From Acidobacteriota bacterium (GTDB lineage Bacteria > Acidobacteriota > Terriglobia > Terriglobales > Acidobacteriaceae), in the NCBI GenBank assembly GCA_021799405.1, contig JAJZAL010000038.1, forward strand, positions 1 through 29,347: DNA of 29,347 nt. Reading direction: 5' to 3'. Of this stretch, positions 1-20,210 are shown in pieces. Every line of letters begins with the position of its first letter. The first letter of the stretch is position 1. A model generated the notes under the pieces. It made no database searches and was not told the origin of the DNA. It saw nothing but the letters and a program-made list of their open reading frames with translations. The position numbers and the translations under genes are program-made.

Positions 1-419
1 GCCGGCGGGTGGCAGTGCACCCGTCCCTGGGGGTGCACAATGTTGGTGATGGCGTTGTTCGTGCCGCCGACGGGAAGGCCCATCGCCGCCAGGTCCCGCT
101 TGAGCGGCTCAATATTCGCAGGATCCTCCAGCAGAAACTCAATGTTGTTCCGGCTGGTGAAACGCAGGTGGCCGCCAGAGTATTTGTCGGCTAAATCGGC
201 AAATTTGCGTATCGTCTGAATGCTCATCAGCCGCGGCGTACCTCCGCGCACGGTGTAGAGCCGGTCGCCGGACTCGGCCACGTGGCACAGCACGCCGGGC
301 GCCAGCTTCTCGTGATACTTCCACTGGCCGTAGTTCTTCCGGATAATCGGCGGAAGAAACTTGTCGTAAGACGGCGGACCGATATCGGTGATGCGGGGCT
401 GAAGTGGAGTTGTCGTCAT
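1..419 (-). CDS. dsrB: Dissimilatory sulfite reductase beta subunit, N-terminal part (cut by window edge)
   Basis: Beta subunit of the siroheme enzyme that reduces sulfite in the cytoplasm, working as an A2B2 complex with DsrA and passing sulfur to DsrC. About 139 codons are visible. The protein opens [16 protein letters not shown] and continues with typical DsrB stretches such as [35 protein letters not shown] and [19 protein letters not shown], then leaves the window; the cluster-binding cysteines lie beyond the edge. The ATG at 419-417 overlaps the dsrA stop in an ATGA, and AAGGAGG stands seven bases upstream inside the end of dsrA, so translation is coupled and subunit output should be matched. 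Family assignment is firm. Whether the enzyme runs reductively cannot be settled from this fragment; a dsrD gene beyond the edge would support the reductive direction. Confidence 0.96.
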
Positions 420-1633
420 TGCTCACCCTCCTTCTCGGTCTTGTAATAGATGTAGGGGTTATCTCTGGGCGCGGAGACCATCTCGGGCGCCGGATCCAAT
501 CCGATGCCGTCAAGAAATGCGGGCATTCCGACCCGCTGGATCAGCTCGCCGATGCGCTCGCGATTGGTGCCGTACTCATCCCAGAAGTCCCAGATGCGCG
601 AAACCAGCTCCTTGATCGTGTCGAGCAGTTCGTCGGCAGCCACAAAGGGAATCAGCACGGAAGAAAGCAGCGCACCCTGAAGAATGGGCGCCTTGGCCCC
701 GATCAGGATCACCGCGCCGCGCTCCTTGCCCGGACGCAGGGCCTTCGGCATCACGTTGATGCAGTGCATGCAGCGCACGCAGTCACGGTTCTGGATGCTC
801 AGCTGCTTGCCATCCCAATCCATGCACTTGCTGGGACAGTGACTGCAAACGTCCTTCTGGATATCCAGTCCGGATGCGGCGTACTTCCCTACTTCCTCAT
901 GATCGATCTGAATCTCGTCTTTCCAGGTACCGATGATCGACATGTCAGCGCGGGCGATCGAAGCCACACAGTCATTGGGACAGGCGGACACCTTGAATTT
1001 GAACTTATACGGAAAGGCCGGCCGGTGCAGTTCGTCCTGATAGGCCATCGTCAGGTCATAGCAGAGCTTCATCGCATCGAAACACGCCCACTCGCAGCGC
1101 GCCATGCCTACGCAACTGGAAGGCGTGCGCACCGCGGATCCCGAACCACCAAGATCGAAGCCCGCGTGGGTAAGCTCCTGGAAAGTTGGCTCCAACTGGT
1201 CCGTGGTTGTGCCCAGCAGAATAATGTCGCCGGTGGATCCGTGCATATTGGTTACACCGGAACCGCGCCGCTCCCAGATATCGCAGATCGTCCGCAGCGC
1301 CTCACTCGTGTAAAACCACCCTGCCGGATGATTCACGCGCATGGTGTGGAAATGCGCGACATTCGGGAACTGCTCACCTACGTCGCTATAGCGGCCGATC
1401 ACTCCGCCGCCATATCCCAGCACGCCCACCAGCCCGCCGTGCTTCCAATGGCTCTTCCGGTCCTCGTAAGAAAGCTCCAACTGGCCAAGCAGGTCTCTGG
1501 CGCTGTCATTTGTTTTGGCCGCGGATTTGATCTCGGTGACGAAACTCGGCCACGGGCCGCTCTCTAACTCATCCAGTAACTTCGTATTCACTTGTCCGTT
1601 TGACGGCTTCTTTCCTTCTTCGGCGTCCGCCAT
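416..1633 (-). CDS. dsrA: Dissimilatory sulfite reductase alpha subunit
   Basis: Alpha subunit of cytoplasmic DsrAB, which reduces sulfite with electrons delivered through DsrC/DsrMK. The 405-residue protein has the DsrA hallmarks in order: [20 protein letters not shown] near the start, [39 protein letters not shown], and the siroheme/[4Fe-4S] cysteines in [11 protein letters not shown] (C-x5-C) and CPNDC (C-x3-C). A ferredoxin-like insert follows with CSHCPSKC and CVRCMHC, then [21 protein letters not shown]. It is shorter than the roughly 435-residue Desulfovibrio protein, because the stretch after the N-terminus and the one before the ferredoxin insert are compact; no key motif is missing. 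AAAGGAG lies about eight bases before the ATG. It is first in a dsrAB unit, has a predicted activator-dependent promoter 65 bases upstream, and is divergent from the siroheme synthase gene. Confidence 0.98.
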
Positions 1634-1699: not shown

Positions 1700-1748
1700 G
1701 GATGAATTCTAGACTTGCTTGCATTGCGTCGATGTGACAACTATCACT
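1700..1748 (-). promoter_or_regulatory. Predicted class II activator-dependent promoter of dsrAB
   Basis: A CRP/FNR-type palindrome occupies 1733-1748 (plus strand TGTGA-CAACTA-TCACT). On the minus strand a -10-like hexamer TAGAAT sits at 1711-1706. The first base of the hexamer is 29.5 bases from the centre of the palindrome, which puts the palindrome at -41.5 relative to a start near 1699 and leaves a leader of about 65 bases before dsrA. There is no good -35 hexamer at the right distance, as expected for a class II activated promoter. The same geometry recurs before dsrM and aprB. The site and spacing are read directly; function is inferred. Confidence 0.6.
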
Positions 1749-1810
1749 GATGATGTAAGTAGCGTTTGAGAGTGCATCTACGAAGCTGTCGGAACGTCCA
1801 AATCATCGTC

Positions 1811-1860
1811 GTATTTCGCACATAAGTACGAGCGGAACAAACAAGTATTCGCACATATCT
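1811..1860. repeat. Imperfect direct repeat in the dsrA/siroheme-synthase divergent region
   Basis: GTATTTCGCACATAAGT at 1811-1827 is repeated with one base deleted as GTATTCGCACATATCT at 1845-1860, giving a period of about 33-34 bases, close to three helical turns. The copies lie 60-110 bases upstream of the siroheme synthase start and further upstream of dsrA. They could be paired binding sites for a regulator of the synthase gene. No known motif is recognised. Confidence 0.4.
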
Positions 1861-1863
1861 CAG

Positions 1864-1891
1864 TTGCGGCTCCGGATTACCGAATTATGCT
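1864..1891 (+). promoter_or_regulatory. Possible housekeeping promoter of siroheme synthase
   Basis: TTGCGG at 1864-1869 and TATGCT at 1886-1891 are separated by 16 bases and would start transcription about 20 bases before the GTG of the siroheme synthase gene. Both hexamers are imperfect. No CRP/FNR-type palindrome stands at the class II position here, unlike the dsr and apr promoters. Weak support only. Confidence 0.3.
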
Positions 1892-1919
1892 AGCCTGAAT
1901 ACCTTGAGGCGGATCTCCC

Positions 1920-2564
1920 GTGAGCGAAAGACCAGCATTCTTCCCGATGTTCGTAAATCTTCAAGAAAAGCAATGCCTCGTTGTCGGTGCGGGTAGCGTG
2001 GCGGCGGCGAAGATCGCTGGATTGCTCCTCTATGGCGCCCACGTCAAGGTAGTAAGTCCGCGTGCCGTGCCGCAAATCAGAGCCCTTGCGAAGGCAGGCA
2101 CTCTCGTCTGGCGGCAGAGATTCTTCTCATCGCGCGATGTTAACGGAGCCTTCCTGGCTGTCGCAGCCACTAACTCCACGAAAATCAATAGCGCCGTATT
2201 CCGCGCTTGCACAGCGCGAGGCATCCTATGCAATTCTGCTGACGATCCCGAGCGTTGTAACTTCATCTATCCCGCTGTGGTTCGCCGCGGGCCGCTGCAA
2301 ATTGCAATCTCCACCGCAGGACAGAGCCCCGCTCTTGCCGCGCGGCTGCGCCGGGAACTCGAAGAACAGTTCATCCCTGAGTGGAGTGAGTGGGTTAAGC
2401 GTCTGGGTGCGCTGCGCCATGATCTGCTCGACAAAAAGATGTCCTCAGCAGCCCGCACCAAACGCCTTAAACAGATCGCATCACCCCGCGCGTTTCATGC
2501 CTTTGCACAAGAGTGCGTGAAGAAGCAACTTACTTTGCCCGCCGGAAAGCTCCGGCGCAAGTAA
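1920..2564 (+). CDS. Siroheme synthase: precorrin-2 dehydrogenase / sirohydrochlorin ferrochelatase (CysG N-terminal / Met8p type)
   Basis: Converts precorrin-2 to sirohydrochlorin with NAD and then inserts iron to give siroheme, the cofactor of DsrAB. The 214-residue cytoplasmic protein has the family's Rossmann start CLVVGAGSVAAAKIAGLL at about residues 20-37, then FLAVAATNSTKIN, CNSADDPERCNFIYPAVVRRGPLQIAISTAGQSPALAARLR and a C-terminal helical part. It lacks the uroporphyrinogen methyltransferase half of full CysG, so that step must be encoded elsewhere. A GTG start preceded by GAGG at about 12 bases is chosen; an in-frame ATG at 1947 is possible and would remove nine residues. Placement back-to-back with dsrA links cofactor supply to the enzyme that needs it. 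It corresponds to genes named sirC or cysG in other organisms. Confidence 0.92.
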   Translation: MSERPAFFPMFVNLQEKQCLVVGAGSVAAAKIAGLLLYGAHVKVVSPRAVPQIRALAKAGTLVWRQRFFSSRDVNGAFLAVAATNSTKINSAVFRACTARGILCNSADDPERCNFIYPAVVRRGPLQIAISTAGQSPALAARLRRELEEQFIPEWSEWVKRLGALRHDLLDKKMSSAARTKRLKQIASPRAFHAFAQECVKKQLTLPAGKLRRK

Positions 2565-2630
2565 ACAGCCGACAGTCTGCGGCGAAAGTCACAATCGTCT
2601 CGAAAGGCGTCCCTCAGTATCTAGGTCCAT

Positions 2631-2663
2631 CTTGATTTTGCCGGTCTTACGGCATGAATCAAG
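2631..2663. terminator. Hairpin between convergent siroheme-synthase and dsrK genes
   Basis: CTTGATT (2631-2637) pairs with AATCAAG (2657-2663), and inside it TGCCG (2639-2643) pairs with CGGCA (2650-2654) around a six-base loop, with a small internal loop of one and two bases. It lies between two converging genes and could end transcription from both sides. Neither side has a clean T tract, so intrinsic termination is not certain. Confidence 0.4.
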
Positions 2664-2709
2664 TCGTATCCTTTCGTAAATCCGGCTTTCGCCATGGCCG
2701 CCAACTTAC

Positions 2710-4317
2710 TCAGCGCCACTCCCACTCAATGAACCCAGGCTTTACATCCACCATTGCATTCACAATCAGTTCAACAAGTCCTCCGTACATGATTCGATTT
2801 TGTTCCCACATGTCGTAATAGGCGAGCATGTCGCGGAACTGGCCCTTGCAGTTACTGCAGGGAGCGCAAAGATATTTCGGCGTCTCCGGCCCGATGCAGT
2901 CTGCAAATGCATTCAGGATCTGCTCCATCTTCTTGCGGCCCGCGACATGAAAGCGCCAATCCGGAAAGTTATTACCGCTCATAATGGCAAAGCCGCTGCC
3001 GCCTCCGCAGCAGTAGTTCTCCACGCCGTGCGGCTCCATCTCGCGAAACTGCGGACAGAGAGCGCGCACGATCTCCCGCTGCGGCTCAACCACGCCCATC
3101 AATCGCACCATGTTGCAGGGATCGTGGAGGGTGACGGGAAAGTCGTTGCGCGCTGGATCGAACTTGATCTTGCCGCTCATTACGATGTCCCGCACCAGAG
3201 GCAGCCAGCTTGTGCGCGGGATGTTGAAGTCGCCGGTGAGCAGCCGGTCGGCGGTCACGCACAGCGCCTTGTGCGCATGGCCGCACTCGCCGACGATGAT
3301 TTGTTTTACACCGAGCTTCTTCGCCGCTTCGACATGCTTCAAGGCTACGCGCGCAAACTGCGCATCGTCGTACCAGAGACCGTAGTTGATCGAGTCATAT
3401 CCGGCCAGTTCCGAGGACATTGTCCAGTTCACGCCGGCCATGGTCAGGATCAGCGCAAAGGCTCCTGGATTCTCCGGCCAGGCCATGATCTCGCCGGCGT
3501 TGTGGATCAGCAGAACATCCGCCCCCTTCACATCCCACGGCGTGTGCACTTCAATGCCCGTTCTCTCGCTGATGTCCTCATCGATGAAGTCGACATTGTC
3601 TTTCACGATTTCCGCGGTCATGCCGGTCGAGGAACCGGCCTTGAGCTGCAGCATCGAACCCTGCTCATGCAGTTCGCGCGCGGCAATGCCCATCTCCTGG
3701 CTGAAGAGCTTGCGCAGCTCGTGCGCCACCAGGCCGTTGTCGCAGCCGATAGGACAGGTCTGCGCGCAGCGCCGGCAGAGATTGCAGCGATACGACAGCT
3801 CGATCAGCCGCGCCACCAGCGGCCAGTTCAGCCGGATGTTTCCGTGCTGCCACGCTGACAACAGCCCGCCGTGCCGGACGTACTTGAAGTACAGGCGGCG
3901 TAAGATTTCCGAGCGGTAAGTTGGCCGGTAAAGCTCGTTGAAGCCGCTGGCCTCAAAGATATGGCAGGACTCGGCGCAGGTCTGGCAGCCCGTGCAGTGC
4001 TCCATGGTGAGCAGGAGCGGCTGCAAGAACGTCCAGTTATTCTGCTTGTCGAAGAGCTTGTCCAGGCCTGAAAGGAAGCGGCCGACCAGTTCCTTCTCTT
4101 CTTCCGCGGTTTTGGGCTGTGGGATGTTGACCGCGCAGGTATCGTCCAGTCCGCACTCATACCGGGTGACGCACTGTTCGGACAACGGCGTCCAGGCGTG
4201 TTCCCGTGCCGGATCATCGAGCGGAGCCGGAAGCGGCATCAGCTCCTCGTTGTCAAGGTGAATCACGGGCTCTCGGTTGGACCGGGAGAGATCGCGCAGA
4301 CGGGTGAAATGGCTCAT
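2710..4317 (-). CDS. dsrK: DsrK: HdrD-like iron-sulfur subunit of the sulfite-reduction membrane complex
   Basis: Cytoplasmic catalytic subunit of DsrMK(JOP), thought to reduce the DsrC trisulfide with electrons from membrane quinol. The 535-residue protein carries two [4Fe-4S] motifs, C108/C111/C114/C118 (CTGCQTCAESC) and C178/C181/C184/C188 (CNLCRRCAQTC). The heterodisulfide-reductase-type CCG features follow: HDPC at 398-401, NYCCGGGSG with the Cys pair at 436-437, and CAPCSNC at 484-490, which bind the non-cubane cluster of HdrB/HdrD proteins. Length matches known DsrK. Its ATG overlaps the dsrM stop by four bases (ATGA), so M and K are translationally coupled. No dsrJ, O or P follows; the next gene is the convergent siroheme synthase. 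Assignment is firm from the motifs, length and DsrM neighbour. Confidence 0.95.
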   Translation of the reverse strand: MSHFTRLRDLSRSNREPVIHLDNEELMPLPAPLDDPAREHAWTPLSEQCVTRYECGLDDTCAVNIPQPKTAEEEKELVGRFLSGLDKLFDKQNNWTFLQPLLLTMEHCTGCQTCAESCHIFEASGFNELYRPTYRSEILRRLYFKYVRHGGLLSAWQHGNIRLNWPLVARLIELSYRCNLCRRCAQTCPIGCDNGLVAHELRKLFSQEMGIAARELHEQGSMLQLKAGSSTGMTAEIVKDNVDFIDEDISERTGIEVHTPWDVKGADVLLIHNAGEIMAWPENPGAFALILTMAGVNWTMSSELAGYDSINYGLWYDDAQFARVALKHVEAAKKLGVKQIIVGECGHAHKALCVTADRLLTGDFNIPRTSWLPLVRDIVMSGKIKFDPARNDFPVTLHDPCNMVRLMGVVEPQREIVRALCPQFREMEPHGVENYCCGGGSGFAIMSGNNFPDWRFHVAGRKKMEQILNAFADCIGPETPKYLCAPCSNCKGQFRDMLAYYDMWEQNRIMYGGLVELIVNAMVDVKPGFIEWEWR

Positions 4318-5249
4318 TTCCGCACCTCCTCGGCAGGATTTGCGGATGCAATCTCTGCCCAGCTTTTCTTTCCGTCGGCGCCTACATGAGCCGCGGCCCA
4401 GGTGGGACGGTTGCGCAGCGACACCGCGACTTTGCTTTCCACGATGCCATCACGCGCATTCCTGCGGTCATCCCATCGCACCGAGTGCCAGGTGAAGTAC
4501 TTGGCAATGAAGTGCGACATGTGCGTAAAAGGGATGTAGGCGGCCAGCGCTGAGACGAGAATCAGACCCAGTCCGGCGGTGGCGCCAACATGCGTCCCGC
4601 GGTCAAATCGCAAGGCGCCGCGGGCAATCTCCTCGAAGGAAGCGCCATTGACCGTGCTGCCGAGAAAGCCATAGGCGAGACACGCGAAGGCGGCGATAAA
4701 GAAAGTGAGATTGAAGATATCGCCTGCCTTTGTGTAATTCTTCAGCGTCGCATCCGTGGCTCGTCGTATCAGCAGCCAGATCGATCCCGCCAATACCAAA
4801 AGAATGCCTGTTGCTCCCGTCCAACCCGCGATCACAAATGCATCCGCCGTCATGCGGCCCGCTACTACGCCGGGAATCAGCGCGCCGAAAGCGGCTCCTG
4901 CTATCGCCAGGCCGGCGGTAACGATGGAAAGATAAAGCCCGAAATGAAAGAGAAATGAGGGCAGCCAGAGACGCGGATTGAACTCCCAGAGCCCCCTCAG
5001 GAAGACGATCTCGCGAAACATCGCCGTCCAGTCGCCGCGGTGATGGACCGCCTGTGGGCTGAGCCACCATTCACCCGACTCAAAGTAAGAGCCGCCATAC
5101 CGGGCCCGATCTGGTTGTTCGTGTGGGACGGGATAGAGCTCCCAGCGCAGATGGAATGGCGTCCGCGCATATTGATAAATGCGCTTTAGACAACCAACCA
5201 AAAACAGCAACGCTCCAGCGTACATTGCGACATAGACCGCAACCGTCAT
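4314..5249 (-). CDS. dsrM: DsrM: membrane cytochrome b subunit (NarI-like)
   Basis: Membrane diheme cytochrome b that oxidises quinol and feeds electrons to DsrK. The 311-residue protein has five predicted transmembrane segments at about 4-22, 97-117, 137-161, 177-198 and 222-241. Candidate heme histidines are H102 in FLFHFGLYL and H243/H246 in THMSHF, the latter just before KYFTWHSVRW, a characteristic end of NarI/DsrM domains. A soluble loop between segments 1 and 2 and a charged C-terminal tail of about 60 residues complete it. It heads the dsrMK unit and overlaps dsrK by ATGA. Two CRP/FNR-type sites lie 72-113 bases upstream of its ATG. DsrM and related HmeC/NarI proteins look alike; the DsrK partner and dsr setting decide the name. 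Confidence 0.9.
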   Translation of the reverse strand: MTVAVYVAMYAGALLFLVGCLKRIYQYARTPFHLRWELYPVPHEQPDRARYGGSYFESGEWWLSPQAVHHRGDWTAMFREIVFLRGLWEFNPRLWLPSFLFHFGLYLSIVTAGLAIAGAAFGALIPGVVAGRMTADAFVIAGWTGATGILLVLAGSIWLLIRRATDATLKNYTKAGDIFNLTFFIAAFACLAYGFLGSTVNGASFEEIARGALRFDRGTHVGATAGLGLILVSALAAYIPFTHMSHFIAKYFTWHSVRWDDRRNARDGIVESKVAVSLRNRPTWAAAHVGADGKKSWAEIASANPAEEVRK

Positions 5250-5287
5250 TCCTCCTCCGATCCCGGCGATGGCTCACCTGCGTCTGG

Positions 5288-5362
5288 CTGAAAACGATAG
5301 GCTTGCCCGAGAATGGACGATGTGTTTCACGTCACAGCCCTTGAGGGGTGTTTCATGTCACA
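5288..5362 (-). promoter_or_regulatory. Predicted dsrMK promoter with tandem CRP/FNR-type sites
   Basis: Two near-identical sites stand 26 bases apart: TGTGTTTCACGTCACA (5321-5336) and GGTGTTTCATGTCACA (5347-5362); the shared 15 bases at 5322-5336 and 5348-5362 differ at one position. Read on the minus strand both begin with a perfect TGTGAC half-site. The proximal site is centred 29.5 bases before a -10-like hexamer TATCGT (minus strand, 5299-5294), i.e. -41.5 from a start near 5287, giving a leader of about 38 bases. The distal site then falls at about -67.5. Geometry matches the dsrA and aprB promoters. Confidence 0.6.
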
Positions 5363-5743
5363 AACATGGCGATTAGAACCGGGGGGAAGTGTGTGCCAAC
5401 TCACCCGACACCGATCATTTATCCAGACAGGAACGAAAGTTAGGTGTCCTATCTCACATGCATGCTCGTATAAGTTTGCGACTAAGATAAAGTAACTAAC
5501 TTCGATATCTTTCAGCAAGTCACAACACATCGTCACCTGGATCGCTGATCGCCCAGAGAGGTATTGATTGGCAAATCGCATGGCGGCGCGATCCCCTCAG
5601 CACAGCCATTCCAGAGACGCTGCATGCGGCTCGCACTTACTCATGCAACCGCGATCCTGGTGATTTTAGGCTCACGATCATAAGTTATCGACTTGCTTGA
5701 GATGTGATTCGCCGCATAGAACTTATAAGCTCTTGGCCGGAGC
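5363..5743. other. Divergent intergenic stretch without a recognisable gene
   Basis: About 380 bases between the dsrM sites and the apr promoter are visibly richer in A and T than the flanking genes. Short open frames exist, but none has a ribosome site plus family-like sequence. The only structure noted is a 7-base inverted pair ATAAGTT (5680-5686) and AACTTAT (5720-5726), just upstream of the apr activator site. It may hold further upstream regulator sites; none is recognised. Confidence 0.5.
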
Positions 5744-5792
5744 CGTGACAGCGGTCACAGAGATGCAATTTAACTGAACGTAGAATTTGCAC
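5744..5792 (+). promoter_or_regulatory. Predicted class II activator-dependent promoter of the apr-qmo-sat operon
   Basis: A CRP/FNR-type site CGTGA-CAGCGG-TCACA covers 5744-5759 and contains a perfect five-base inverted repeat GTGAC-N4-GTCAC. A -10-like hexamer TAGAAT lies at 5781-5786, its first base 29.5 bases from the centre of the site, exactly as at dsrA, where the hexamer is identical. The predicted transcript start near 5793 gives a long leader of about 317 bases before aprB. Sequence and spacing are seen; regulator identity is inferred. Confidence 0.6.
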
Positions 5793-5803
5793 GGTTTAAG
5801 AAA

Positions 5804-5825
5804 GCGAACAAAGTTAGCTGTTCGC
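5804..5825 (+). repeat. Inverted repeat GCGAACA-N8-TGTTCGC at the start of the predicted apr leader
   Basis: A perfect seven-base inverted repeat with an eight-base spacer covers 22 bases, two helical turns, and begins about 11 bases after the predicted apr transcript start. As DNA it would suit a dimeric repressor blocking early elongation; as RNA it would be a 5'-end stem-loop. The half AAAGCGAACAA (5801-5811) is repeated exactly at 6060-6070, 40 bases before aprB. Confidence 0.45.
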
Positions 5826-6109: not shown

Positions 6110-6568
6110 GTGCCGAGCTACGTCAATCCCGAAAAATGCGATGGCTGCAAAGCATTGGACCGTACTGCGTGCCAGTACATTTGTCCGAATGACCTGATGG
6201 TCCTGGACAAAGACACGCAGAAAGCATATAACCGCGATCCCGCCATGTGCTGGGAATGCTACAACTGCGTCAAGATTTGCCCAACTCAAGCTGTTCAGGT
6301 TCGCGGCTACGCGGATTTTGTTCCGTTAGGCGCCTCCGTAACGCCTTTGCGCTCCACTGACGCGATTATGTGGACCGTGAAGTTCAGAAACGGAACCCTG
6401 AAGCGCTTCAAGTTTCCCATTCGCACCACGCCCGAGGGCGCTGCAGTGCCGAACGGCGGGTTCGAGTCGAACGGAGACCTCTCCAGCAACGCGCTCTTTA
6501 CGGAGCCGGCATCGCTGGGGCTGCCCGAGGTTTTCAGTCTGAACAAGACAGGAGGCGCTCATGCCTAA
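6110..6568 (+). CDS. aprB: Adenylylsulfate (APS) reductase beta subunit
   Basis: Ferredoxin-like electron-transfer subunit of APS reductase, passing electrons from QmoABC to the FAD of AprA in the cytoplasm. The 152-residue protein has the two [4Fe-4S] motifs at C10/C13/C21/C25 (CDGC...CQYIC) and C47/C50/C53/C57 (CWECYNCVKIC), then the AprB C-terminal tail that embraces AprA. The opening PSYVNPEKCDGC is the family's normal start, which fixes the GTG at 6110; GGAGG stands about six bases upstream. Its last eight bases overlap aprA, implying coupled translation. It is the first gene of the long plus-strand operon, behind a leader of about 317 bases if the predicted promoter is right. Confidence 0.97.
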   Translation: MPSYVNPEKCDGCKALDRTACQYICPNDLMVLDKDTQKAYNRDPAMCWECYNCVKICPTQAVQVRGYADFVPLGASVTPLRSTDAIMWTVKFRNGTLKRFKFPIRTTPEGAAVPNGGFESNGDLSSNALFTEPASLGLPEVFSLNKTGGAHA

Positions 6569-8507
6569 TCCCGAAGTATTCGTTGTCGAAACTGATCTTC
6601 TGATCCTGGGCGGAGGCATGGCGGCATGCGGGGCCGCTGTTGAGGCCGCGCACTGGGCCAAGCAGAAGGGCCTCAAAGTCACGCTCGTCGACAAAGCGGC
6701 GATGGACCGCTCCGGCGCCGTGGCCATGGGCCTTTCCGCCATCAACCAGTATGTCGGCCTGAAAGACGGGGCCAACTCCGTGAAGGACTATGTGGACTAT
6801 GTCCGCAATGACCTCATGGGCGTGACCCGCGAAGACCTGGTGGCCAACATCGCCCGCCACGTCGACTCAAGCGTGCATCTCTTCGAAAAGTGGGGCCTGC
6901 CCATCTGGAAAGATGAGGCCGGCAAGTACGTGCATGAAGGCCGCTGGCAGTTGATGATCAACGGCGAGTCCTACAAAGTGGTGGTTGCCGAGGCTGCGAA
7001 GAACGCGCTGCTCGGCAGCGGCGTGGGACAGATTTTCGAGCGTGTGTTCATCGTCGGACCGCTGATGGACGGCGACCGCTGCGCCGGCGCCGTGGGCTTC
7101 TCGGTGCGCGAGAACAAGGTGTATATCTTCCGCTCCAAGGCCACGCTGGCGGCCATGGGCGGCGCAGTCCACGTCTTCAAGCCCCGCAGTTCGGGCGAAG
7201 GCATGGGGCGCGCCTGGTATCCACCGTGGAACTCCGGCTCCTCCGCCTACTTCACGCTGAAGGCGGGAGCGGAGATGACCTGCCAGGAAGTCCGCTTCAT
7301 TCCCGTGCGCTTCAAGGATGCGTATGGGCCCGTAGGAGCGTGGTTCCTCCTGTTCAAGTCGCGCGCCACCAACGCCATGGGCGGAGATTACATGGTGGAG
7401 CGCCGGCCCGAGTTGGAGAAGTGGGGGCCATACGGCAGAGTCAAGCCGGTTCCCGCCAACCTGCGCAACTACCTCGGCATGCTCGACGTGCTCGACGGCA
7501 AGGGACCGATCTCGATGAGAACGGAAGAAGCCCTGACCAAGATCGCCGAGCAGTACAAGGACGATCCCAAGGCCTACCAGAAGAAGATGAAAGAGCTGGA
7601 GTCGGAGGCGTGGGAAGACTTCCTGGATATGACGATCTCGCAGGCGATTCTCTGGGCCGCATCGAACGTGCAGCCTGAGCAGAAGAGCTCCGAGATTGCC
7701 GCCGCCGAGCCTTATTTCATTGGCTCGCACTCAGGGGCATCGGGCGCCTGGCTCTGCGGTCCTGAGGACCTGCAGACCGGTGAAACCAAGTCCGAGTACT
7801 TCTGGGGCTACACCAACATGTCAACCGTCAAGGGCCTGTTCTGCGCGGGAGACGCCTCCGGAGCTTCGAGCCACAAGTTCTCGTCTGGCTCGCACGCCGA
7901 GGGACGGATCGCCGCCAAGTCCGCGATCAAGTTCGTCGTGGAGAATAATGCCCTGCCCAAGCTGGATCAGGCCGAGGTCGACAAGATCGTCGCCGAAGTC
8001 CTGAAACCGCTGGAGACGTTTGAACAGAACCGGAAGCTGACCACCGACGAGGACGTCAATCCCAACTACATCAAGCCGCGCTCTTTCATGTTCCGGTTGC
8101 AAAAGATCATGGACGAGTATGCGGGCGGCGTCACTGCCCAGTTCAGCACCAACAAAGCACAGTTGGAGCGGGCTCTGGAACTGCTGGCTTTCCTGAAGGA
8201 AGACTCGGAGATGCTGGCAGCCGCCAATACCCATGAACTGATGCGGTGCTGGGAGAACGTCCATCGCATGTGGCAGGCCGAGGCTCACGTCCGCACCATG
8301 CTGTTCCGCGGCGAGACCCGCTGGCCGGGCTACTACATGCGTACGGATACGCCGGCTCTGGACGAAGAGAAGTGGCACGTCTTCGCCAACTGCCGGTGCG
8401 ATCCCAAGACGGGGAAATGGGAGATGCTCACGCGGCCTATCTTCCGTATCTTCGAGCAACCGAAGGCCGAGGCGCCCGCGCCCCAGCCAGCGGCGGCCGC
8501 GCGCTAA
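6561..8507 (+). CDS. aprA: Adenylylsulfate (APS) reductase alpha subunit
   Basis: FAD subunit of APS reductase, converting APS to sulfite and AMP (the reverse reaction in sulfur oxidisers). The 648-residue protein starts with the FAD-binding motif [18 protein letters not shown] (about residues 13-30). It continues with [17 protein letters not shown], the substrate-channel region [20 protein letters not shown], and [12 protein letters not shown] with the conserved active-site-type histidine at about residue 390; [19 protein letters not shown] closes the FAD domain. Length is typical of AprA. It overlaps aprB by eight bases and is followed by a strong hairpin, then by the zinc-ribbon gene. Qmo-linked Apr is common in sulfate reducers and also occurs in some sulfur oxidisers, so direction must be judged with the Dsr type. 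Confidence 0.98.
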
Positions 8508-8513
8508 CGCGAG

Positions 8514-8541
8514 TGAGGTTCCGGCCACGGCCGGAACCTCA
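8514..8541 (+). repeat. Perfect hairpin between aprA and the zinc-ribbon gene
   Basis: TGAGGTTCCGGC (8514-8525) pairs base for base with GCCGGAACCTCA (8530-8541) around the loop CACG, six bases after the aprA stop. No T run follows directly, so full termination is unlikely. It may protect the 3' end of the aprBA message or act as a partial attenuator, lowering expression of the genes behind it. Confidence 0.6.
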
Positions 8542-8568
8542 TTCCACTTCTTTTCGAGAGAGCAGGTT

Positions 8569-8856
8569 ATGGCGCCAGAAACCGATCCTCGTTGCCCGCA
8601 CTGCCATAGCCTCATGCGGCGATGGGCCAACCCCCAAATCACCTCCTGGGACGGCGAGTACCAGTGGGTGTGTTTCAACGACGATTGCCCGTATTTTGTA
8701 CGCGGCTGGGAGTGGATGAAGAGCCAATTCAACGTCACCGCTTCCTACCGTCACCGGCTGGAGCCGAGGACGGGCGAGAGCGGACCGCTTCCCGTGTGGT
8801 CGCGCGATGCACTGAAGAGCAACATTCTTCCCGGAGAGGCAGGCCAGGATGCCTGA
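8569..8856 (+). CDS. Small zinc-ribbon protein linked to APS reductase/Qmo
   Basis: A 95-residue cytoplasmic protein with paired cysteines CPHC at 9-12 and CFNDDC ending near residue 42, arranged like a zinc ribbon of the Ogr/Delta type. The rest is a distinctive [19 protein letters not shown] stretch and a C-terminal RHRLEP...[12 protein letters not shown] tail. It has no signal peptide or membrane segment. The last eight bases overlap the next gene, so the two are probably made together. Similar small zinc-ribbon proteins are, as far as I recall, seen beside sulfur genes in other sulfate reducers, but no function is established. Being wedged between aprA and qmoA suggests a role in assembly or regulation of the Apr-Qmo system; that is inference only. 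Only a weak purine stretch (GAGAGCAGG) precedes the ATG. Confidence 0.8.
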
Positions 8857-9673
8857 GTTCACTGAGCAGGAAATTCTCGAAAACAGTTCGCGCATGGGCC
8901 TCGATACCAGGTTCAAATTTTGCTGCGGTCCCGGCGTGGAGTGTTTCAACCGTTGCTGCGGCGATGTCGCGATTCTGCTTTCCCCCTACGACGTATTGCG
9001 GCTCAAGAATGCGCTGCACATGGACTCCTCGGAGTTCCTCGAGAAATACACCCTCACCATGCGCTCCCGGGACAAGCATATTCCGGCCGTGTTTCTGCGC
9101 ATGGACGATGAGACGCGCCGCTGCCCCTTTGTCACCGAGTCCGGCTGCGCTGTTTACAATCACCGGCCCTGGGCATGCCGCATGTATCCGCTGGGCATGG
9201 CGGAGCCGAAAGGCCCGAATGCCGCGGCGCAGAGGTTCTACTTCCTGGTACAGGAGGAGCTCTGCCAGGGACATCGGGCGGCCAATGAGCATTCGGTCCG
9301 CGAGTGGATCGCGGCACAGAAACTCGATGACTTTGACCGGATGCAGGCTCCGTTTCTGGAACTGATGTCGCATCCGGGCTGGGAAGGCCCGGAGCCGCTC
9401 AGCCAGCAGAAGCTGGACATGTGCTTCATGTCCCTTTATGACCTGGACCGCTTTCGCCGGTTCATTTCGGAGACCCGGTTTCTGGACCTGTTCGAGGTGG
9501 ACGAGGCGCGCATCGAGGCGATTGCCGAGGATGACGAGGAACTCCTGGACTTTGCCTTCGACTGGCTCGCCTTCAGTCTCTTCCACGAAAAGCGCATGAA
9601 GTTGAGAAGGCCGCTGCCAGCCAATCCGGCAGCCGTCTCGGAAGTTGAGGCAATGAGCAATTTGCCCGGGTAG
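8849..9673 (+). CDS. YkgJ-family cysteine-cluster protein
   Basis: A 274-residue cytoplasmic protein of the YkgJ/CxxCxxCC family, whose cysteines are thought to chelate zinc or an iron-sulfur cluster. Cysteines occur in [19 protein letters not shown] (residues about 24-43), then [26 protein letters not shown], the family signature with the C-x7-C...RP-x2-C-x2-YP pattern. The C-terminal half is acidic and helical ([23 protein letters not shown]) with no recognised domain. It overlaps the zinc-ribbon gene by eight bases and ends only four bases before qmoA, so it is within the apr-qmo transcript. Its biochemical role is unknown; position suggests cluster or metal delivery to Apr or Qmo. Confidence 0.85.
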
Positions 9674-9677
9674 ATAT

Positions 9678-10955
9678 ATGGTCAATCTCGATACAGGAAA
9701 CGAAGAGGGCGACGCCATCCTGGTGGTGGGCGGAGGGATTGCGGGCGTCACCAGCGCGATCGAAGCCGCCGAGGCCGGATGCCAGGTGGTTCTGGTCGAA
9801 AAGTCCGCGTATCTGGGCGGGCATGTGGCGGCGTTTCATCGTTACTTTCCCAAGCTTTGCCCGCCACCTTGCGGGCTGGAAATTGATTTCCGGCGTCTGC
9901 AGAACAATCCACGCATTACCGTCTACACGCTGGCCGAAGTGGAGAGCCTGAACGGCTCCCCCGGCAACTACGAAGCGGTGATCAGGATCATGCCGCGTTA
10001 CGTGACGGCGGCCTGCACCTTGTGCGGCGAGTGCGAGCGTGTCTGCCCGGTTGAGATTCCGGACGCATTCAACTGCGGAATCACGAAAACCAAGGCCATT
10101 CATCTGCCGCATCGCATGGCCTTTCCGGCGCAATACATGATTGACGACGACGCCTGCTCCAATGATTGCAGCCTCTGCGCCGACACCTGCCGGTACCTCG
10201 CAATTGATCTGAAGCAAAAGGAGACAAAAAAGACTCTGCGCGTGGCTTCGGTGGTCTTCGCCACAGGATGGGCTCCATACGATGCAGCTAAGATCGACAA
10301 TCTCGGGTTCGGTACCTGCGCCAATGTCGTCACCAACGTGATGCTGGAGCGCATGGCGGCTCCGGACGGCCCCACCGCCGGCAGGATCGTGCGGCCCTCC
10401 GACGGCAAGGCGCCCCGCGCCGTGGCCTTTGTGCAGTGCGCCGGATCGCGCGATCGCAATCATCTGCCCTACTGCTCGGGCGTTTGCTGCACAGCCTCGC
10501 TCAAGCAGGCGGGTTACATCCACAGTCAATATCCGGAGGCGAAGATCTCGATGTTCTACATCGATCTCCGCACTCCCGGCCATCTTGAAGATTTCGCATC
10601 CAAGGCCATCGCGGCCAACGGCATTGAGTTGATCAAAGGCAAGGTGGGCAAGGTGCAGGAGCAACCCGTAAGCCGCGATCTGCTGGTGACCGCCGAGGAC
10701 GTCCTGGGCGGAAGAAAGATCGCGCGCGAGTACGACATAGTCGTCCTCGCCGTGGGGATCGTGCCGCAGAGCGCCGGTCTGCCGGGCTGCGTCGCCCTGG
10801 ATGAATTTGGTTTTGCCTCAACCAATGGCGGGCCCGGGGTTCTTGCGGCCGGTTGCGTAAAGCGGCCGGCGGAGGTGGCTGTTTCAATTCGCGATGCTAC
10901 AGGCGCGGCATTGAAGGCGATGCAGAGCGTAGCAGGCAGGGCAAATCATGGATAA
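9678..10955 (+). CDS. qmoA: QmoA: quinone-interacting oxidoreductase subunit A (HdrA-like flavoprotein)
   Basis: Soluble flavoprotein subunit of QmoABC, the membrane-bound complex that passes electrons between menaquinone and AprBA. The 425-residue protein has the FAD motif ILVVGGGIAGVTSAIEAAEAG at about 14-34, the HdrA-type YLGGHVAAFHRYFPKLCPPPC segment, two cysteine clusters C113/C116/C119/C123 and C160/C164/C167/C171, and FVQCAGSRDRNHLPYCSGVCC, a conserved HdrA signature. It is shorter than methanogen HdrA, as QmoA normally is. No strong ribosome site is visible; the ATG at 9678 follows the previous stop by a few bases. The last eight bases overlap qmoB. Assignment is secure from motifs, length and the A-B-C order. 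Confidence 0.95.
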   Translation: MVNLDTGNEEGDAILVVGGGIAGVTSAIEAAEAGCQVVLVEKSAYLGGHVAAFHRYFPKLCPPPCGLEIDFRRLQNNPRITVYTLAEVESLNGSPGNYEAVIRIMPRYVTAACTLCGECERVCPVEIPDAFNCGITKTKAIHLPHRMAFPAQYMIDDDACSNDCSLCADTCRYLAIDLKQKETKKTLRVASVVFATGWAPYDAAKIDNLGFGTCANVVTNVMLERMAAPDGPTAGRIVRPSDGKAPRAVAFVQCAGSRDRNHLPYCSGVCCTASLKQAGYIHSQYPEAKISMFYIDLRTPGHLEDFASKAIAANGIELIKGKVGKVQEQPVSRDLLVTAEDVLGGRKIAREYDIVVLAVGIVPQSAGLPGCVALDEFGFASTNGGPGVLAAGCVKRPAEVAVSIRDATGAALKAMQSVAGRANHG

Positions 10956-13200
10956 ACGGCTGGGCGTTTACATCTGCGGCGGCTGCTCCATCGGGGAGTC
11001 CCTTGACGTGGACCGGCTGGCGAAAGTTGCGGCGACAGGACATAAGGTTCCGGTGTGCCGTACGCATGCATGCCTGTGCGGCGAGGAAGGCGTTGCCCAG
11101 ATTCGCGGCGACCTGACGGGCGGCGCGGTCAATGCGATCGTGATTGCGGCTTGCTCCCCGCGCGCCAAGATGGAGTGTTTCAACTTCGGCTCAACTCAGA
11201 TCGTGGAGCGCGTGAACCTGCGCGAGCACGTTGCGTGGTCGCACCCCCCGAAGGATGAGGACTCCCAGGCGCTGGCGGAAGACTACCTGCGCATGGGCAT
11301 GGCAAAAGCGGAAAAGATGGAGCCGCCCGAGCCGCTGTCAGAAACCATCTCCCGCGCGATCCTCGTGGTGGGCGGCGGCGTAACCGGTATCAATGCCGCG
11401 CTCGAGGGCGCCAAGGCCGGCCACGATGTGCTCTTGGTGGAAAAGGAACCGCAGCTTGGCGGCTTTCTCGGCGGCCTGAAGAAAGTCTTCCCAACGCATC
11501 CTCCCTACACTGAAGCCGAAGACAACCAGCTCGCGGAAAAGATCAGCGCGGTCAGCGCGCATCCTCGCATCAAGGTATTCTGCTCGACGCAAGTGACTCG
11601 GACCGAAGGCCAGCCGGGGATGTTCGACGTCACCTTGCGCAACGGGAATGATGCGGAGACGCATCGCGTCGGCGCCATTGTGATGGCCACCGGCTGGAAG
11701 CCCTACGATCGCGCCAGGCTGACCTTGCCCGGCTGCGATCTGCCGGACGTTGTCACCAACGTGGAGTTTGAGCGGATGGCCGCGGCTGGCTCCGTCGCGC
11801 GGCCTTCCGATGGCCAGCCAGTGAAGAGCGCTCTGTTTGTGCAGTGCGCCGGTTCGCGCGACCCCAAGCATCTGAGCTACTGCTCGTCGGTCTGCTGCAT
11901 GTCCACCCTCAAGGAAGCGGAATGGCTGCGCGCACAGAATCCCGAGGTCGAAATCTTCATAATTTATCGGGACATGGTGACCCCGGGGACGTATGAAAGC
12001 TACTACCAGAGCCTCCAGAACCACGCGCTCAATTTTCTGATGAAAGGCAGCGTCACCAGCCTGGAGCGGGATGCAAACGGCAAGGTGGTTGTGAGCGTGG
12101 ACGGCAGCCTGATCGGCTCTCCGATCCGTGTCGCGGTCGATATGGTTGTGCTGGCGACCGGCATGGTGCCAAATTCGGCTGACAATGACGCCATTCGCAC
12201 GCTGCGCGATGCGAGGCGGACCGTCGAGCGGAATGAATCCGAGACGCAGCGAGCCGAAGCGGAAAAGATTGTCACTCTTTTGCAGGATCGGGATGGGACT
12301 GAGATTTTGAATCTCAGCTACCGCCAGGGCCCCGACCTGCCGGTGCTTCAAAACGGCTTCCCCAACTCCCACTTCGTGTGCTTCCCGTATGAGACGCAGC
12401 GCACGGGCATCTATGCGGCGGGCGCGGTGCGCTCGCCCATGGACTCCGCGATGGCCGCCGAAGATGCCTGCGGCGCCATGCTGAAGGCCATCCAGAGCGT
12501 GCAGCTCGCCACAAACGGGCAGGCGGTTCATCCGCGCGCGGGAGATCTCTCCTATCCGAACTTTGCGCTGCAGCGCTGCACCATGTGCAAACGCTGCACC
12601 GTCGAGTGTCCCTTCGGCGCTCTGGACGAGGACGAAAAGGGGACGCCTAAGTTCAATCCCTACCGCTGCCGCCGCTGCGGCATCTGCATGGGCGCGTGCC
12701 CGGAGCGAATCATCTCCTTCAAGAACTACTCGGTGGACATGATCGCCTCCATGGTGAAGGCGATCGAGGTGCCGGACGAGTTCGAGGACAAGCCACGCAT
12801 CCTGATCTTCGCCTGCGAAAACGATGCGTATCCCGCCCTCGATCAGGCCGGCATGATGCGAGCCACCTATGACGCCAGCGTGCGCGTGATTCCTCTGCGC
12901 TGCCTGGGCTCAATGAACATTGTCTGGATCGCCGACGCGCTCTCGCGCGGCATTGACGGCGTCATGCTGATGGGCTGCAAGTTTGGCGACGACTATCAAT
13001 GCCACTTCATTCGCGGCAGCGAGCTGGCCAACCGCCGCCTGGAAAACGTAAAGGACACGCTGGAGCGCCTGCAATTGGAATCGGGGCGGATCGAACTCGT
13101 GCAGTTGGGGATCGACGAGGGCGATCGCGTTCCCAGGATAATCGACGACTTTGTCGCACGGGTCCGCGAGTTGGGCCCGAACCCATACAAGGGGTTCTAG
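10948..13200 (+). CDS. qmoB: QmoB: HdrA-like flavoprotein with MvhD-type C-terminal domain
   Basis: Large soluble subunit of QmoABC. The 750-residue protein begins RLGVYICGGCSIGESLD, the HdrA N-terminal domain. Then comes an FAD motif (ILVVGGGVTGINAALEGAKAG, about 134-155), the LGGFLGGLKKVFP segment and FVQCAGSRDPKHLSYCSSVCC. Two ferredoxin motifs follow at about 543-555 (CTMCKRCTVEC) and 573-584 (CRRCGICMGAC). Residues from about 610 form an MvhD/FlpD-like domain (ILIFACENDAYPALDQAG...VIPLRCLGSMN...GCKFGDDYQCHF), the part that in other complexes accepts electrons. This HdrA-MvhD fusion is the defining layout of QmoB. It overlaps qmoA by eight bases and ends two bases before qmoC. Confidence 0.96.
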   Translation: MDKRLGVYICGGCSIGESLDVDRLAKVAATGHKVPVCRTHACLCGEEGVAQIRGDLTGGAVNAIVIAACSPRAKMECFNFGSTQIVERVNLREHVAWSHPPKDEDSQALAEDYLRMGMAKAEKMEPPEPLSETISRAILVVGGGVTGINAALEGAKAGHDVLLVEKEPQLGGFLGGLKKVFPTHPPYTEAEDNQLAEKISAVSAHPRIKVFCSTQVTRTEGQPGMFDVTLRNGNDAETHRVGAIVMATGWKPYDRARLTLPGCDLPDVVTNVEFERMAAAGSVARPSDGQPVKSALFVQCAGSRDPKHLSYCSSVCCMSTLKEAEWLRAQNPEVEIFIIYRDMVTPGTYESYYQSLQNHALNFLMKGSVTSLERDANGKVVVSVDGSLIGSPIRVAVDMVVLATGMVPNSADNDAIRTLRDARRTVERNESETQRAEAEKIVTLLQDRDGTEILNLSYRQGPDLPVLQNGFPNSHFVCFPYETQRTGIYAAGAVRSPMDSAMAAEDACGAMLKAIQSVQLATNGQAVHPRAGDLSYPNFALQRCTMCKRCTVECPFGALDEDEKGTPKFNPYRCRRCGICMGACPERIISFKNYSVDMIASMVKAIEVPDEFEDKPRILIFACENDAYPALDQAGMMRATYDASVRVIPLRCLGSMNIVWIADALSRGIDGVMLMGCKFGDDYQCHFIRGSELANRRLENVKDTLERLQLESGRIELVQLGIDEGDRVPRIIDDFVARVRELGPNPYKGF

Positions 13201-13202
13201 AT

Positions 13203-14348
13203 ATGGCTGACGCGTTGATGCTCCGTCCGGATCGGGAACTCATCCGCGAAGTTACGCAGAACAGCGGCGGAGAGCTCAAGAAGTGTTTCCAGTGCGCAAC
13301 CTGCAGTTCGGTCTGCTCACTCTCGACTGAGGCACGGCCGTTCCCGCGCCAGCAGGTTCTCAAGGCGCAGTGGGGGATGACGGATCAGTTGATCGGCGAT
13401 CCCTCCATCTGGCTCTGCCACGACTGCGGCGATTGCACGGCCCGTTGCCCGCGCGGCGCGCGGCCGTCGGCGGTAATGGACGCCATCCGCATGGCAACCA
13501 TCCGCCGGCTCGCCTTTCCGCGCTTCATGGGGAATATGGTAGGCAGGCAGGAGAATGGGGCGATCATGTTCGTGCTCTCCGCCCTGATCCTGCTGGCCAT
13601 CGCCATATTGCCCGCCATCCGCTCGGAGGTGCGGCCTCTGGTCTTTGCCCAGATGTTTCCCAAAGACAGGCTGGAGCCGCTGTTCTTTGCCGTCAGCGCC
13701 TATGTTGTGCTGGCGTTGACGATAGGCGCTCTGCGCTTTGTGAAAGCATTGCGCGCCTCGGGAGCAGACGGGCCGATTCTGCCGGCTCTCGTTCCCGTTC
13801 TGATTGAGATCATCCGCCATCGCCGCTTTGCGAGCTGCGGCGCCGGGCATGTCCGGCGCTGGGGACATCTCCTTGTGCTCTCCGGCTTTCTGGGCCTTGC
13901 CCTCATGGGCACCACGGTGGGCATCGGCAGCCTGCTCGGCCTGATGGATACCCCGATTCCGACGCTGAATCCACTGAAGATCTTTGCGAATCTGTGCGCT
14001 CTTCTGCTCGTCATCGGCGTCTCGTTGCTCTTCTGGAATCGCATCACCAACCCGGAAAAGCGCGCAGGCAGTTCGTATTGCGATTGGTATTTCCTGGCCC
14101 TGGTGGGCAGCGTCGGGCTGACCGGATTCCTCTCGGAGATGTTGCGCCTGGCGCAGAACCCCGACTGGATGTTCTCGGTCTACTACATCCATCTCTCCCT
14201 GGTCCTGACGCTCTTTTTGTGTACGCCCTATTCGAAGTTCGTTCATTTTCTTTACCGGACCTTGGCCATGGCTGCTACATGGCGCGAAAACCAATCACCC
14301 GGCCAGGCGCTCGTGGGTGCTCGTGGTTCCGAAATCACGTCCGCTTAG
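13203..14348 (+). CDS. qmoC: QmoC: HdrC/HdrE-type fused iron-sulfur and cytochrome b membrane subunit
   Basis: Membrane anchor of QmoABC that exchanges electrons with menaquinone. The 381-residue protein has an N-terminal HdrC-like part with two [4Fe-4S] motifs, C28/C31/C34/C38 ([11 protein letters not shown]) and C72/C75/C78/C82 ([11 protein letters not shown]). A NarI/HdrE-like membrane part follows, with segments at about 120-140, 160-181, 219-248, 259-279, 296-315 and 324-345; histidines such as H206, H222 and H330 could bind heme. The open frame extends 68 codons upstream into qmoB, but the ATG at 13203 gives the usual family start ([19 protein letters not shown]) two bases after the qmoB stop, so the longer version is rejected. 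No qmoD-type gene follows; sat is next after 40 bases. Confidence 0.95.
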
Positions 14349-14388
14349 AGTCCCGGCCCTTACCGCGTTATTTGAACGAGGTCTTCCT

Positions 14389-15660
14389 ATGCACAAACTC
14401 GTCTCTCCGCACGGCAGTTCTGACCTGAAGCCCCTGCTGCTTGAAGGTCGCGATCGAACCGAGGAAATCCAGCGGGCCGCAAAGCTGAAACATGTCCCGC
14501 TCACCAGCCGGGAAACCGGCGATCTCATCATGATGGGCATCGGCGCCTTCACGCCGCTCGATGGCTTTATGGGCCATGACGATTGGAAGGGCTGCTGCGA
14601 CAGTTACACACTGGCCAGCAAGAACGGAACCTTCTGGCCGATTCCCATCACGCTTTCCACCGAGGAAACGCTGGCCAACTCCATCGCTCCGGGCGAAGAA
14701 GTGGCTCTGTGGGACGTGGAGACCGATGCGCTTGTCGGCACCATGAAAGTCGAGGAGAAGTACACCATCGACAAGGAACACGAGTGCAAAGAAGTGTTCC
14801 GCACCACCGACCCGAAACATCCCGGCGTTCAGAAGGTGATGGAGCAGGCCGCCGTCAACCTGGCCGGACCGGTGAAGGCGCTCTCCGAATCCTTCTTCCC
14901 GGAGGAGTTCAAGGGAATCTATCAGCGTCCCGCCGACGCCCGCAAGATCTTCACCGAGCGCGGCTGGAGCACTGTGGCGGCACTGCAGCTGCGCAACCCC
15001 ATGCACAATTCGCACGCTTACCTGGCGTGGATTGCGATTGAAGTTTGCGACGGCGTGTACGTGCACCAGTTGCTGGGCAAGCTCAAACCCGGCGACATTC
15101 CAGCCGATGTGCGCGTAAAGGCGATCGACGCATTGGTCAATAAGTATTTCCGCAAGGAGCGCGTGCTCCAGGGTGGCTATCCGATGGAGATGCGCTACGC
15201 CGGCCCGCGCGAGGCCCTGCTCCACGCCGTCTTCCGCCAGAACTACGGCTGCTCTCACCTCATCGTGGGGCGCGATCACGCCGGAGTCGGCGACTACTAC
15301 GGCCCGTTCGATGCACAGAAGATCTTCAACGAGGTGCCCGCCGGCGCTCTCGCAATTCAGCCGCTGTGCATGGACTGGACCTTCTATTGCTACGAGTGCG
15401 GAAGCATGGCCTCCATGAAGACCTGCCCGCATGAAAGCAAGGCGGTCATCGACGAGAACGGGAACTACAAGGGCGGCGCGCGCCTGTTGCTCTCCGGCAC
15501 CATGCTGCGCAAGCTGATGAGCGAAGGCAAGCCGGTGCCCGCGGAGTTCTCAAAGCCCGAGGTGATTGAAGTCCTGAAGAAGTATTACGACACCCTGGAG
15601 GAGAAGGTGGAAGTCGCGCTCCACTCAGCGGCTACCGGCGATGTGAAATCGAAGCGCTGA
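14389..15660 (+). CDS. sat: Sulfate adenylyltransferase (ATP sulfurylase)
   Basis: Activates sulfate with ATP to APS and pyrophosphate in the cytoplasm, the entry step to AprBA; it runs in reverse in sulfur oxidisers. The 423-residue protein has the nucleotide-binding signature [11 protein letters not shown] (family QxRNPxHxxH), the second active-site motif [12 protein letters not shown], and a zinc site CYEC...C-x-H in [18 protein letters not shown], as in single-domain bacterial Sat. It lacks an APS kinase domain, as expected for a dissimilatory enzyme. The frame is open from 14317, but the ATG at 14389 with ACGAGG seven bases upstream gives the normal start [17 protein letters not shown]. 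It follows qmoC by 40 bases, and a strong hairpin lies after its stop. Confidence 0.97.
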
Positions 15661-20173: not shown

Positions 20174-20210
20174 TCGGGGCCGCAAAAATTTATCACGAGG
20201 AGGCGGGTTG

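Follow-up and report, generated by a model that had tools for sequence, protein, structure and literature searches.

A stretch of 29,347 nucleotides from an Acidobacteriaceae genome (Acidobacteriota; GenBank assembly GCA_021799405.1, contig JAJZAL010000038.1; hereafter the window) carries genes for dissimilatory sulfate reduction, and three of its promoters, those of dsrA, a dsrM-like gene and aprB, share one layout: a palindrome of the TGTGA-N6-TCACA type, then 21 bases, then a -10 hexamer (TAnnnT) facing the gene. We consider it likely that these sites are operators of a CRP/FNR-family activator in the class II position, with the protein called group A below as the best candidate, and that dsrAB, the dsrMK-like pair and the apr-qmo-sat series are switched on through them under anoxia. 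Little is known about how oxygen-exposed sulfate reducers decide when to use sulfate, and candidate operators, three predicted starts and one or two possible regulators now put the question within reach of experiment in Acidobacteria. If the reading is true, a long pathway has been brought under one control via separate promoters. Such an arrangement is not described in the open literature searched (most subscription journals lie outside that scope). In the excerpts of two studies of acidobacterial sulfate reducers such regulation is not discussed, the words "promoter", FNR and CRP being absent from one (PMC6018796) and "regulat" from the other (PMC9448743).

Each operator has one mismatch to the consensus, and its centre lies 29.5 bases from the first base of the -10 at all three genes, exactly as an earlier note on this DNA had claimed (Table 1). 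The three are intergenic, and the whole window holds no other palindrome within one mismatch of the consensus. The poor -35 hexamers reported in that note were also recovered, with best matches of 1 to 3 of 6 (spacer 16-18); it spoke of four sites and listed only three. Both the palindrome type and the distance of 21 bases to a -10 with a poor -35 are those of CRP/FNR class II promoters, the starts being predicted ones. An activator dimer bound at these sites would be centred at about -41.5, overlapping the -35 region, and would recruit RNA polymerase to promoters that have a -10 but a poor -35, i.e., by class II activation. A weaker palindrome lies upstream of the dsrM operator, and a related locus (L008) likewise has a second site (6384-6399) 26 bases from its dsrM operator.

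Chance palindromes whose spacing agrees by coincidence would be a very improbable explanation. By themselves, the palindromes are no more than mildly unusual at the scale of the window, which counts in favour of chance: with at most one mismatch, dinucleotide shuffles (n = 1000) held 0.59 on average and at least three in 2.3% of cases, and with two mismatches allowed the window shows no excess (11 versus 8.3 expected). Adding a -10 at N21, with one mismatch allowed in the two parts together, changes the picture: shuffles averaged 0.006 and none of the 1000 reached three. When the two intergenic regions alone were shuffled, the mean was 0.043 palindromes, and neither three palindromes nor two with a -10 appeared in 5000 trials. 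Chance is further contradicted by the recurrence of the sites at orthologous promoters and by a genome-wide peak in spacing, both described below.

With the window counted, the site is found at six aprB, eight dsrM and five dsrA loci, two of the sites being imperfect. For aprB, the best 80 of at least 566 loci were surveyed, 77 of them with at least 371 bases upstream. GTGA...GTCACA lies at -355 to -371 in five (L006, L007, L008, L009 and L012; -366 in the window), all within the seven closest AprB relatives. In these and the window, six loci in all, the distance to TAnnnT (the gap, counted as the bases between palindrome and hexamer) is 21 in four cases and 22 in two. Between the window and L006, L007, L008 and L012, mean agreement across the dsrM-aprB spacer is 39% (0.393); it is 0.875 at the aprB site, and the three best-conserved of 845 16-base segments all overlap that site.

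A dsrM-like gene is present in 30 of the 396 genomes of the phylum sample, five of them in the window's family, and its promoters were read from tblastn positions. Four of the same-family genomes have enough upstream DNA (G000, G345, G121 and G073), and in each of them a one-mismatch site lies between -87 and -93, with TAnnnT 21 or 22 bases further on. The contig of G007 stops at the dsrM gene, and its promoter was taken from L007, the locus of that genome; L008 is the locus of G345, the pairing of locus and genome drawing on an identical dsrM site, and both genomes belong to the window's genus. Outside the family, the site with a -10 occurs in none of the 24 genomes with enough upstream DNA (of 25); L093 and L115 have a lone one-mismatch palindrome there, without the -10. 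Across eight aligned loci (adding L006, L007, L012 and L026, the last of which may lie outside the family), GTGA and CAC are invariant, and TAnnnT stands at gap 21 in seven and gap 22 in one. The dsrA site was found in three of nine scanned loci (the window, L008 and L012; not in L026, L036, L061, L073, L075 or L080) and also in G007 (L200) and G121 (L240, where it precedes the ATG at 9426 by 99 bases). Four of these five sites are followed by TAnnnT, at gap 21 or 22. The sites are thus kept at orthologous promoters, the reverse of what the earlier note had named as telling against its proposal.

One-mismatch palindromes outside the conserved aprB place occur in L022 (-141) and L040 (-74), neither with a gap-21 -10 beginning TA. 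Those upstream of aprB in L057, L060, L062, L076, L078 and L085 were rejected as operators, being parts of GGCAC-N5-TTGCW, which we take from its consensus to be a sigma-54-type promoter. On the sense strand within 600 bases upstream of aprB, this motif occurs in 9 of 81 loci (the same best 80 and the window itself; upstream DNA reaches 300 bases or more in 78), and on the antisense strand in none; the -24/-12 elements lie 146 to 273 bases upstream in L055, L057, L060, L062, L071, L076, L078, L080 and L085. The same operon therefore seems, judged by its promoter motifs, to be wired in at least two ways.

The arrangement extends well beyond sulfate reduction. G000, a genome of the same species (5.30 Mb, 99.1% complete, 339 contigs), matches window positions 331-29288 with contigs C125 and C204 at 99.7-99.9% identity, the left part falling on C125. 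It has 13 exact palindromes versus 1 in the reversed control, and 111 versus 30 with one mismatch. Spacing was tested on 50 listed G000 sites (13 exact, 37 of 98 one-mismatch), a set that leaves out the dsrA, dsrM and aprB sites: TAnnnT occurs at gap 21 in 7 cases, at gap 22 in 4 and at gap 20 in one, against a mean of 0.69 at the other gaps from 5 to 65, where the largest count is 4, at gap 60. Gaps 21-22 together give 11 versus 1.4 expected; the Poisson probability is 8e-6 for gap 21 alone and 2.5e-7 with gap 22, which was added post hoc after the counts had been seen. The palindrome with a -10 at N21 occurs at 15 places in G000, the three described here and 12 others, and 120 times in ten family genomes versus 6 in the control, which mainly tests the palindrome; some sites are counted from both sides.

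The concern in the earlier note that equally good sites might precede unrelated genes is therefore partly justified, since the same arrangement stands at those 12 other places, which we infer to be a wider regulon. At two of them the genes ahead have a plausible link to low oxygen (phosphoketolase; an HdrA/MvhD-type set); the others face regulators, genes of unknown function or, in some cases, no clear gene in that orientation. Genes near G000 sites more generally encode phosphoketolase, two universal stress proteins, a multihaem cytochrome, cytochrome c assembly, pyruvate:ferredoxin oxidoreductase and the HdrA/MvhD-type set, as well as a glycoside hydrolase, a TonB receptor, an EAL/PAS protein, an AraC/LuxR-type regulator, UvrC and proteins without a Pfam match. 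At C39:88508 of G000 (L151), a site with TACACT at gap 21 lies inside an open reading frame (ORF) with an ArsR-type helix-turn-helix, upstream of MvhD-/HdrA-type genes. In G345 (L198), a fumarate-reductase-type gene (1163-2878) about 5 kb past the dsr-side genes has a one-mismatch site (1034-1049) 129 bases ahead of it, followed by TAGCGT at gap 22.

G000 encodes five HTH_Crp_2 proteins, four of which (L001, L002, L003 and L004) have an Arg-Glu recognition helix, so that a CRP/FNR gene with a matching helix, as the earlier note had anticipated, does exist. Group A comprises L001 and its orthologues in the four other genus genomes examined, G007, G345, G171 and G388 (88-92% identical to L001); it has the helix SRETVTR, CX2CX8C near the N-terminus and a fourth cysteine in EPCQV, and all four cysteines are present in 5/5 proteins. 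Against the curated NCBIfam model for Fnr it scores 59.6 bits, below the cut-off of 228, and we regard it as apparently FNR-like without filing it as FNR. Its genes in G000 and G388 lie between two universal stress protein genes and have palindromes with at most one mismatch in front; those in G345 and G171 lie near universal stress protein genes with sites. L003 has the helix SRETVTR without the cysteines and was not taken as the regulator, as the proteins of G007 and G345, two genomes that bear sites, include no counterpart of it.

The same sites and the same class II activation could instead be served by the paralogue group B (L002), an unlikely alternative yet the strongest of those weighed. 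Group B was found in 5/5 genus genomes examined (82-85% identical to L002), with the helix TRETVTR and CX2CX8C, and next to its gene in G000 a divergent gene for a multihaem cytochrome has a site in front, with TAATCT at gap 22. On the other side, it has only the three N-terminal cysteines and lacks the fourth, FNR-like one; G217 has a single strong L001-like protein and still 10 exact sites; and in G121, G073 and G023 (g4 and g2), where palindromes are present, no CRP/FNR protein examined exceeds 38% identity to group B, a comparison that covers above-cut-off proteins only and in which L251, one of eight extra stretches, matched no query. Group A is our best candidate for the paralogue acting at dsr and apr, a choice made by inference.

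That choice is in keeping with the distribution of the palindrome. Among 24 family genomes (eight plus 16 further ones), exact sites average 10.0 in the 19 that have a strong L001-like protein and 1.2 in the five that do not (Mann-Whitney 0.0008); for the 16 alone the averages are 8.9 and 1.2 (0.003). Those without such a protein (best E 6.2e-15 or weaker), G049, G094, G103, G155 and G163, have 0, 3, 0, 1 and 2 exact sites against control counts of 1, 2, 1, 0 and 3, the best match in G103 being of the L005 type. In the other 11 of the 16, where the best E is 1.5e-48 or lower, there are 2 to 23 exact sites, with 0 to 2 in the control. In G217, 9 of the 10 exact sites lie in a region of 50 kb that surrounds the group A-type gene and contains five universal stress protein genes and genes for a multihaem cytochrome, a cytochrome b, glycogen phosphorylase, an alcohol dehydrogenase and a cation ATPase, along with ABC-transporter and other genes. 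These counts appear to tie the palindrome to the group A type rather than to prove which paralogue acts at dsr and apr.

Two further regulators were weighed. A nitric-oxide-type regulator of the HcpR/DNR kind, represented by group C (L004), might control the pathway, which we judge improbable. Group C has no such cysteines, but its helix VRELISR keeps the Arg-Glu pair that work on HcpR ties to TGTGA sites (PMC545781, PMC1274295; excerpts); its gene adjoins a ScdA/hemerythrin gene in G000, and in G171 it (C23:66342) lies about 1.4 kb from an hcp gene (C23:67980), as in HcpR systems. However, hcp (PF03063) occurs in none of the five dsrM-bearing family genomes (G000, G007, G345, G121 and G073) and, of three others, in G171 only; G112, G139, G179 and G217, whose single strong L001 match is of group A type, still have 3, 3, 5 and 10 exact sites; and the apsAB and sat sites of Desulfovibrio overlap the -10, unlike those here (PMC545781, excerpt). 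HcpR was set aside because hcp is absent from these metagenome-assembled genomes (MAGs; 99-100% estimated completeness), and the link to HcpR drawn in the earlier note is not upheld.

Rex, an NADH-sensing repressor, binds a TTGTGAA-type palindrome, which resembles the one described here, and we hold its binding at these sites to be next to impossible. The Rex DNA-binding family PF06971 was found in none of the eight genomes tested and in 7 of 14 control genomes, and TGTGAA occurs in no half-site of the three operators. Rex was set aside because the protein is absent from MAGs of the same estimated completeness.

Overall, a CRP/FNR class II regulon, which remains a prediction, is supported because the sites are conserved in relatives, because the distance to the -10 is preferred genome-wide and because CRP/FNR genes with a matching helix are present; this part of the earlier interpretation stands. 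For G345, its expectation that one signal governs the whole pathway is reasonable, with dsrC and dsrJOP not identified. In the mechanism that we propose, group A would be, perhaps, an oxygen-labile Fe-S sensor, given its four FNR-like cysteines, and in the absence of oxygen would activate three gene sets at once: dsrAB, the dsrMK-like pair and apr-qmo-sat. Regulators of this class seem to run a wider regulon in the family, with universal stress proteins, multihaem cytochromes and phosphoketolase, that has a low-oxygen flavour. Oxygen is put forward as the signal because of the cysteines, the company of neighbouring genes and published physiology: in Acidobacterium capsulatum, uspA genes go up as oxygen falls (PMC11636273), and in a bioreactor study of a Bryobacteraceae sulfate reducer, dsrAB was transcribed almost only without oxygen (PMC10564751). 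Neither FNR nor CRP is mentioned in the text of the former, nor FNR in that of the latter.

Class II activation thus seems to be the means by which sulfate reduction was joined to an older regulon, one probably tied to low oxygen. Grounds for and against appear about balanced for a more specific picture. In it, one family already had a low-oxygen regulon, run by a regulator that resembles FNR but has the DNA specificity of CRP, and the reductive dsr genes, the dsrMK-like pair and apr-qmo-sat were connected to it one promoter at a time. Loss of oxygen would then switch on sulfate respiration as a whole, the reverse of the HcpR repression predicted in Desulfovibrio, and other lineages would use sigma-54-type promoters for the same operon.

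Several observations weigh against our reading. At the promoters, TATCGT of dsrM matches TATAAT at only 4 of 6 positions; the dsrM site has a conservation of 0.64 and ranks 58th of the 845 spacer segments; L010 and L011, also within the seven closest AprB relatives, yielded no aprB site; in L012 the dsrA site has no TAnnnT at gaps 20-23 and the dsrM site has two mismatches; and L026 has the dsrM site without those of aprB and dsrA. In the wider genome, many site-adjacent G000 genes have no known link to oxygen, and some sites lie inside ORFs. The genomes in the association test are related and hence not independent, and the counts in low-site genomes (2 to 5) overlap with the counts in genomes that lack the protein (0 to 3). 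As for the regulator, identity to group A in G121, G073 and G023 is also at most 45%. Groups A, B and C are present in dsrM-bearing and dsrM-lacking genus members examined, and group A is not a dedicated sulfate regulator, because it occurs in members without dsrM. Groups A and B are inseparable on the evidence at hand, B having TRETVTR, three cysteines and a site by its divergent cytochrome gene; group C likewise keeps the Arg-Glu helix, and L003 the SRETVTR helix. The aprB locus of SbA3 (L035), a relative of the bioreactor sulfate reducer, has no such site, and as that sulfate reducer also belongs to another family, the bioreactor study supports the physiology and not the motif.

The closest named records to the window are Acidobacteria MAGs, one titled Acidobacteriaceae. 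On the minus strand, dsrB lies 3' of dsrA with only its start inside the window and the rest beyond the edge; a siroheme-synthase-type gene is on the plus strand. No NCBIfam model matched the dsrM-like protein (limit 1e-20). In the apr-qmo-sat series, aprB and aprA match TIGR02060 and TIGR02061, qmoC matches NF038018 and sat the sulfate adenylyltransferase models; the qmoA-like and qmoB-like proteins have HdrA-family matches under cut-offs. In G345 (L198 12223-14833), a second DsrMK-like pair (NarI-type and Fer4 proteins) stands past dsrAB and a DsrL-like gene, in view of which the window's own pair may be an extra copy. The conserved block CGGTTTnnGAAnGnGAA, considered as a second motif in seven genomes, has one-mismatch counts close to the control; exact copies number one each in G000 and G345, both at apr, and one elsewhere in G073. 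Two similar TauE-like membrane proteins (16612-17526 and 20091-21194) flank a long phosphoenolpyruvate-synthase-like protein 3' of sat, all named by eye. Rfam families gave 0 matches in the window.

Table 1. Promoter elements and genes of the sulfate reduction loci in the window
Feature	Position	Strand	Details
dsrA (dissimilatory sulfite reductase alpha subunit)	416..1633	-	NCBIfam TIGR02064, E 3.8e-179
Predicted -10 of dsrA	1706..1711	-	TAGAAT; start expected near 1699
Putative CRP/FNR-type operator of dsrA	1733..1748	-	read towards dsrA, AGTGATAGTTGTCACA-N21-TAGAAT
dsrK-like	2710-4317	-	DsrK model NF045796, E 4.1e-97, 325.6 bits, under cut-off 400
dsrM-like	4314-5249	-	name rests on position next to dsrK
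Predicted -10 of dsrM	5294..5299	-	TATCGT; start expected near 5287
Putative CRP/FNR-type operator of dsrM	5321..5336	-	read towards dsrM, TGTGACGTGAAACACA-N21-TATCGT
Weaker palindrome	5347..5362	-	2 mismatches; 26 bases upstream of dsrM operator
Putative CRP/FNR-type operator of apr-qmo-sat series	5744..5759	+	CGTGACAGCGGTCACA-N21-TAGAAT in gene orientation
Predicted -10 of aprB	5781..5786	+	TAGAAT; start expected near 5793
Conserved block	5792..5808	+	CGGTTTnnGAAnGnGAA; start of predicted apr transcript
aprB, aprA, further ORF (8849-9673), qmoA-like, qmoB-like, qmoC, sat	6110..15660	+	

Three known systems invite comparison. The HcpR regulon of Desulfovibrio likewise has TGTGA-N6-TCACA in front of apsAB and sat (PMC545781, PMC1274295, PMC5701242). 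According to the excerpts of these papers, its apsAB and sat sites overlap the -10 and are read as repression, and DsrAB lies outside the regulon; here, 21 bases separate the aprB site from the -10 that follows it, the set extends to dsrA and dsrM, and hcp is missing from the dsrM-bearing family genomes tested. A further palindrome with at most one mismatch, for example one overlapping an apr or sat -10, was not found in the window. HcpR proteins are described as being without the FNR cysteine motif (PMC1274295); Fe-S clusters are spoken of for a Desulfovibrio HcpR2 (PMC5701242), and therefore, as far as these excerpts go, cysteines alone do not separate group A from HcpR.

The other two comparisons concern the protein itself. 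FNR/Anr-type activators share with group A comparable cysteine places, the class II position predicted here and some putative targets of low-oxygen type. They differ in that group A keeps the Arg of the CRP helix position (Arg 180 in excerpts of PMC545781 and PMC1274295), which goes with TGTGA, FNR reading TTGAT, and in the N-terminal spacing CX2CX8C. CRP and a protein that we take to be GlxR, the closest solved sequences, have Arg-Glu recognition residues and, as predicted for group A, TGTGA-N6-TCACA sites in common with it. Class II activation is known for CRP, and both CRP and GlxR bind cAMP; group A, unlike either, has an N-terminal cysteine motif.

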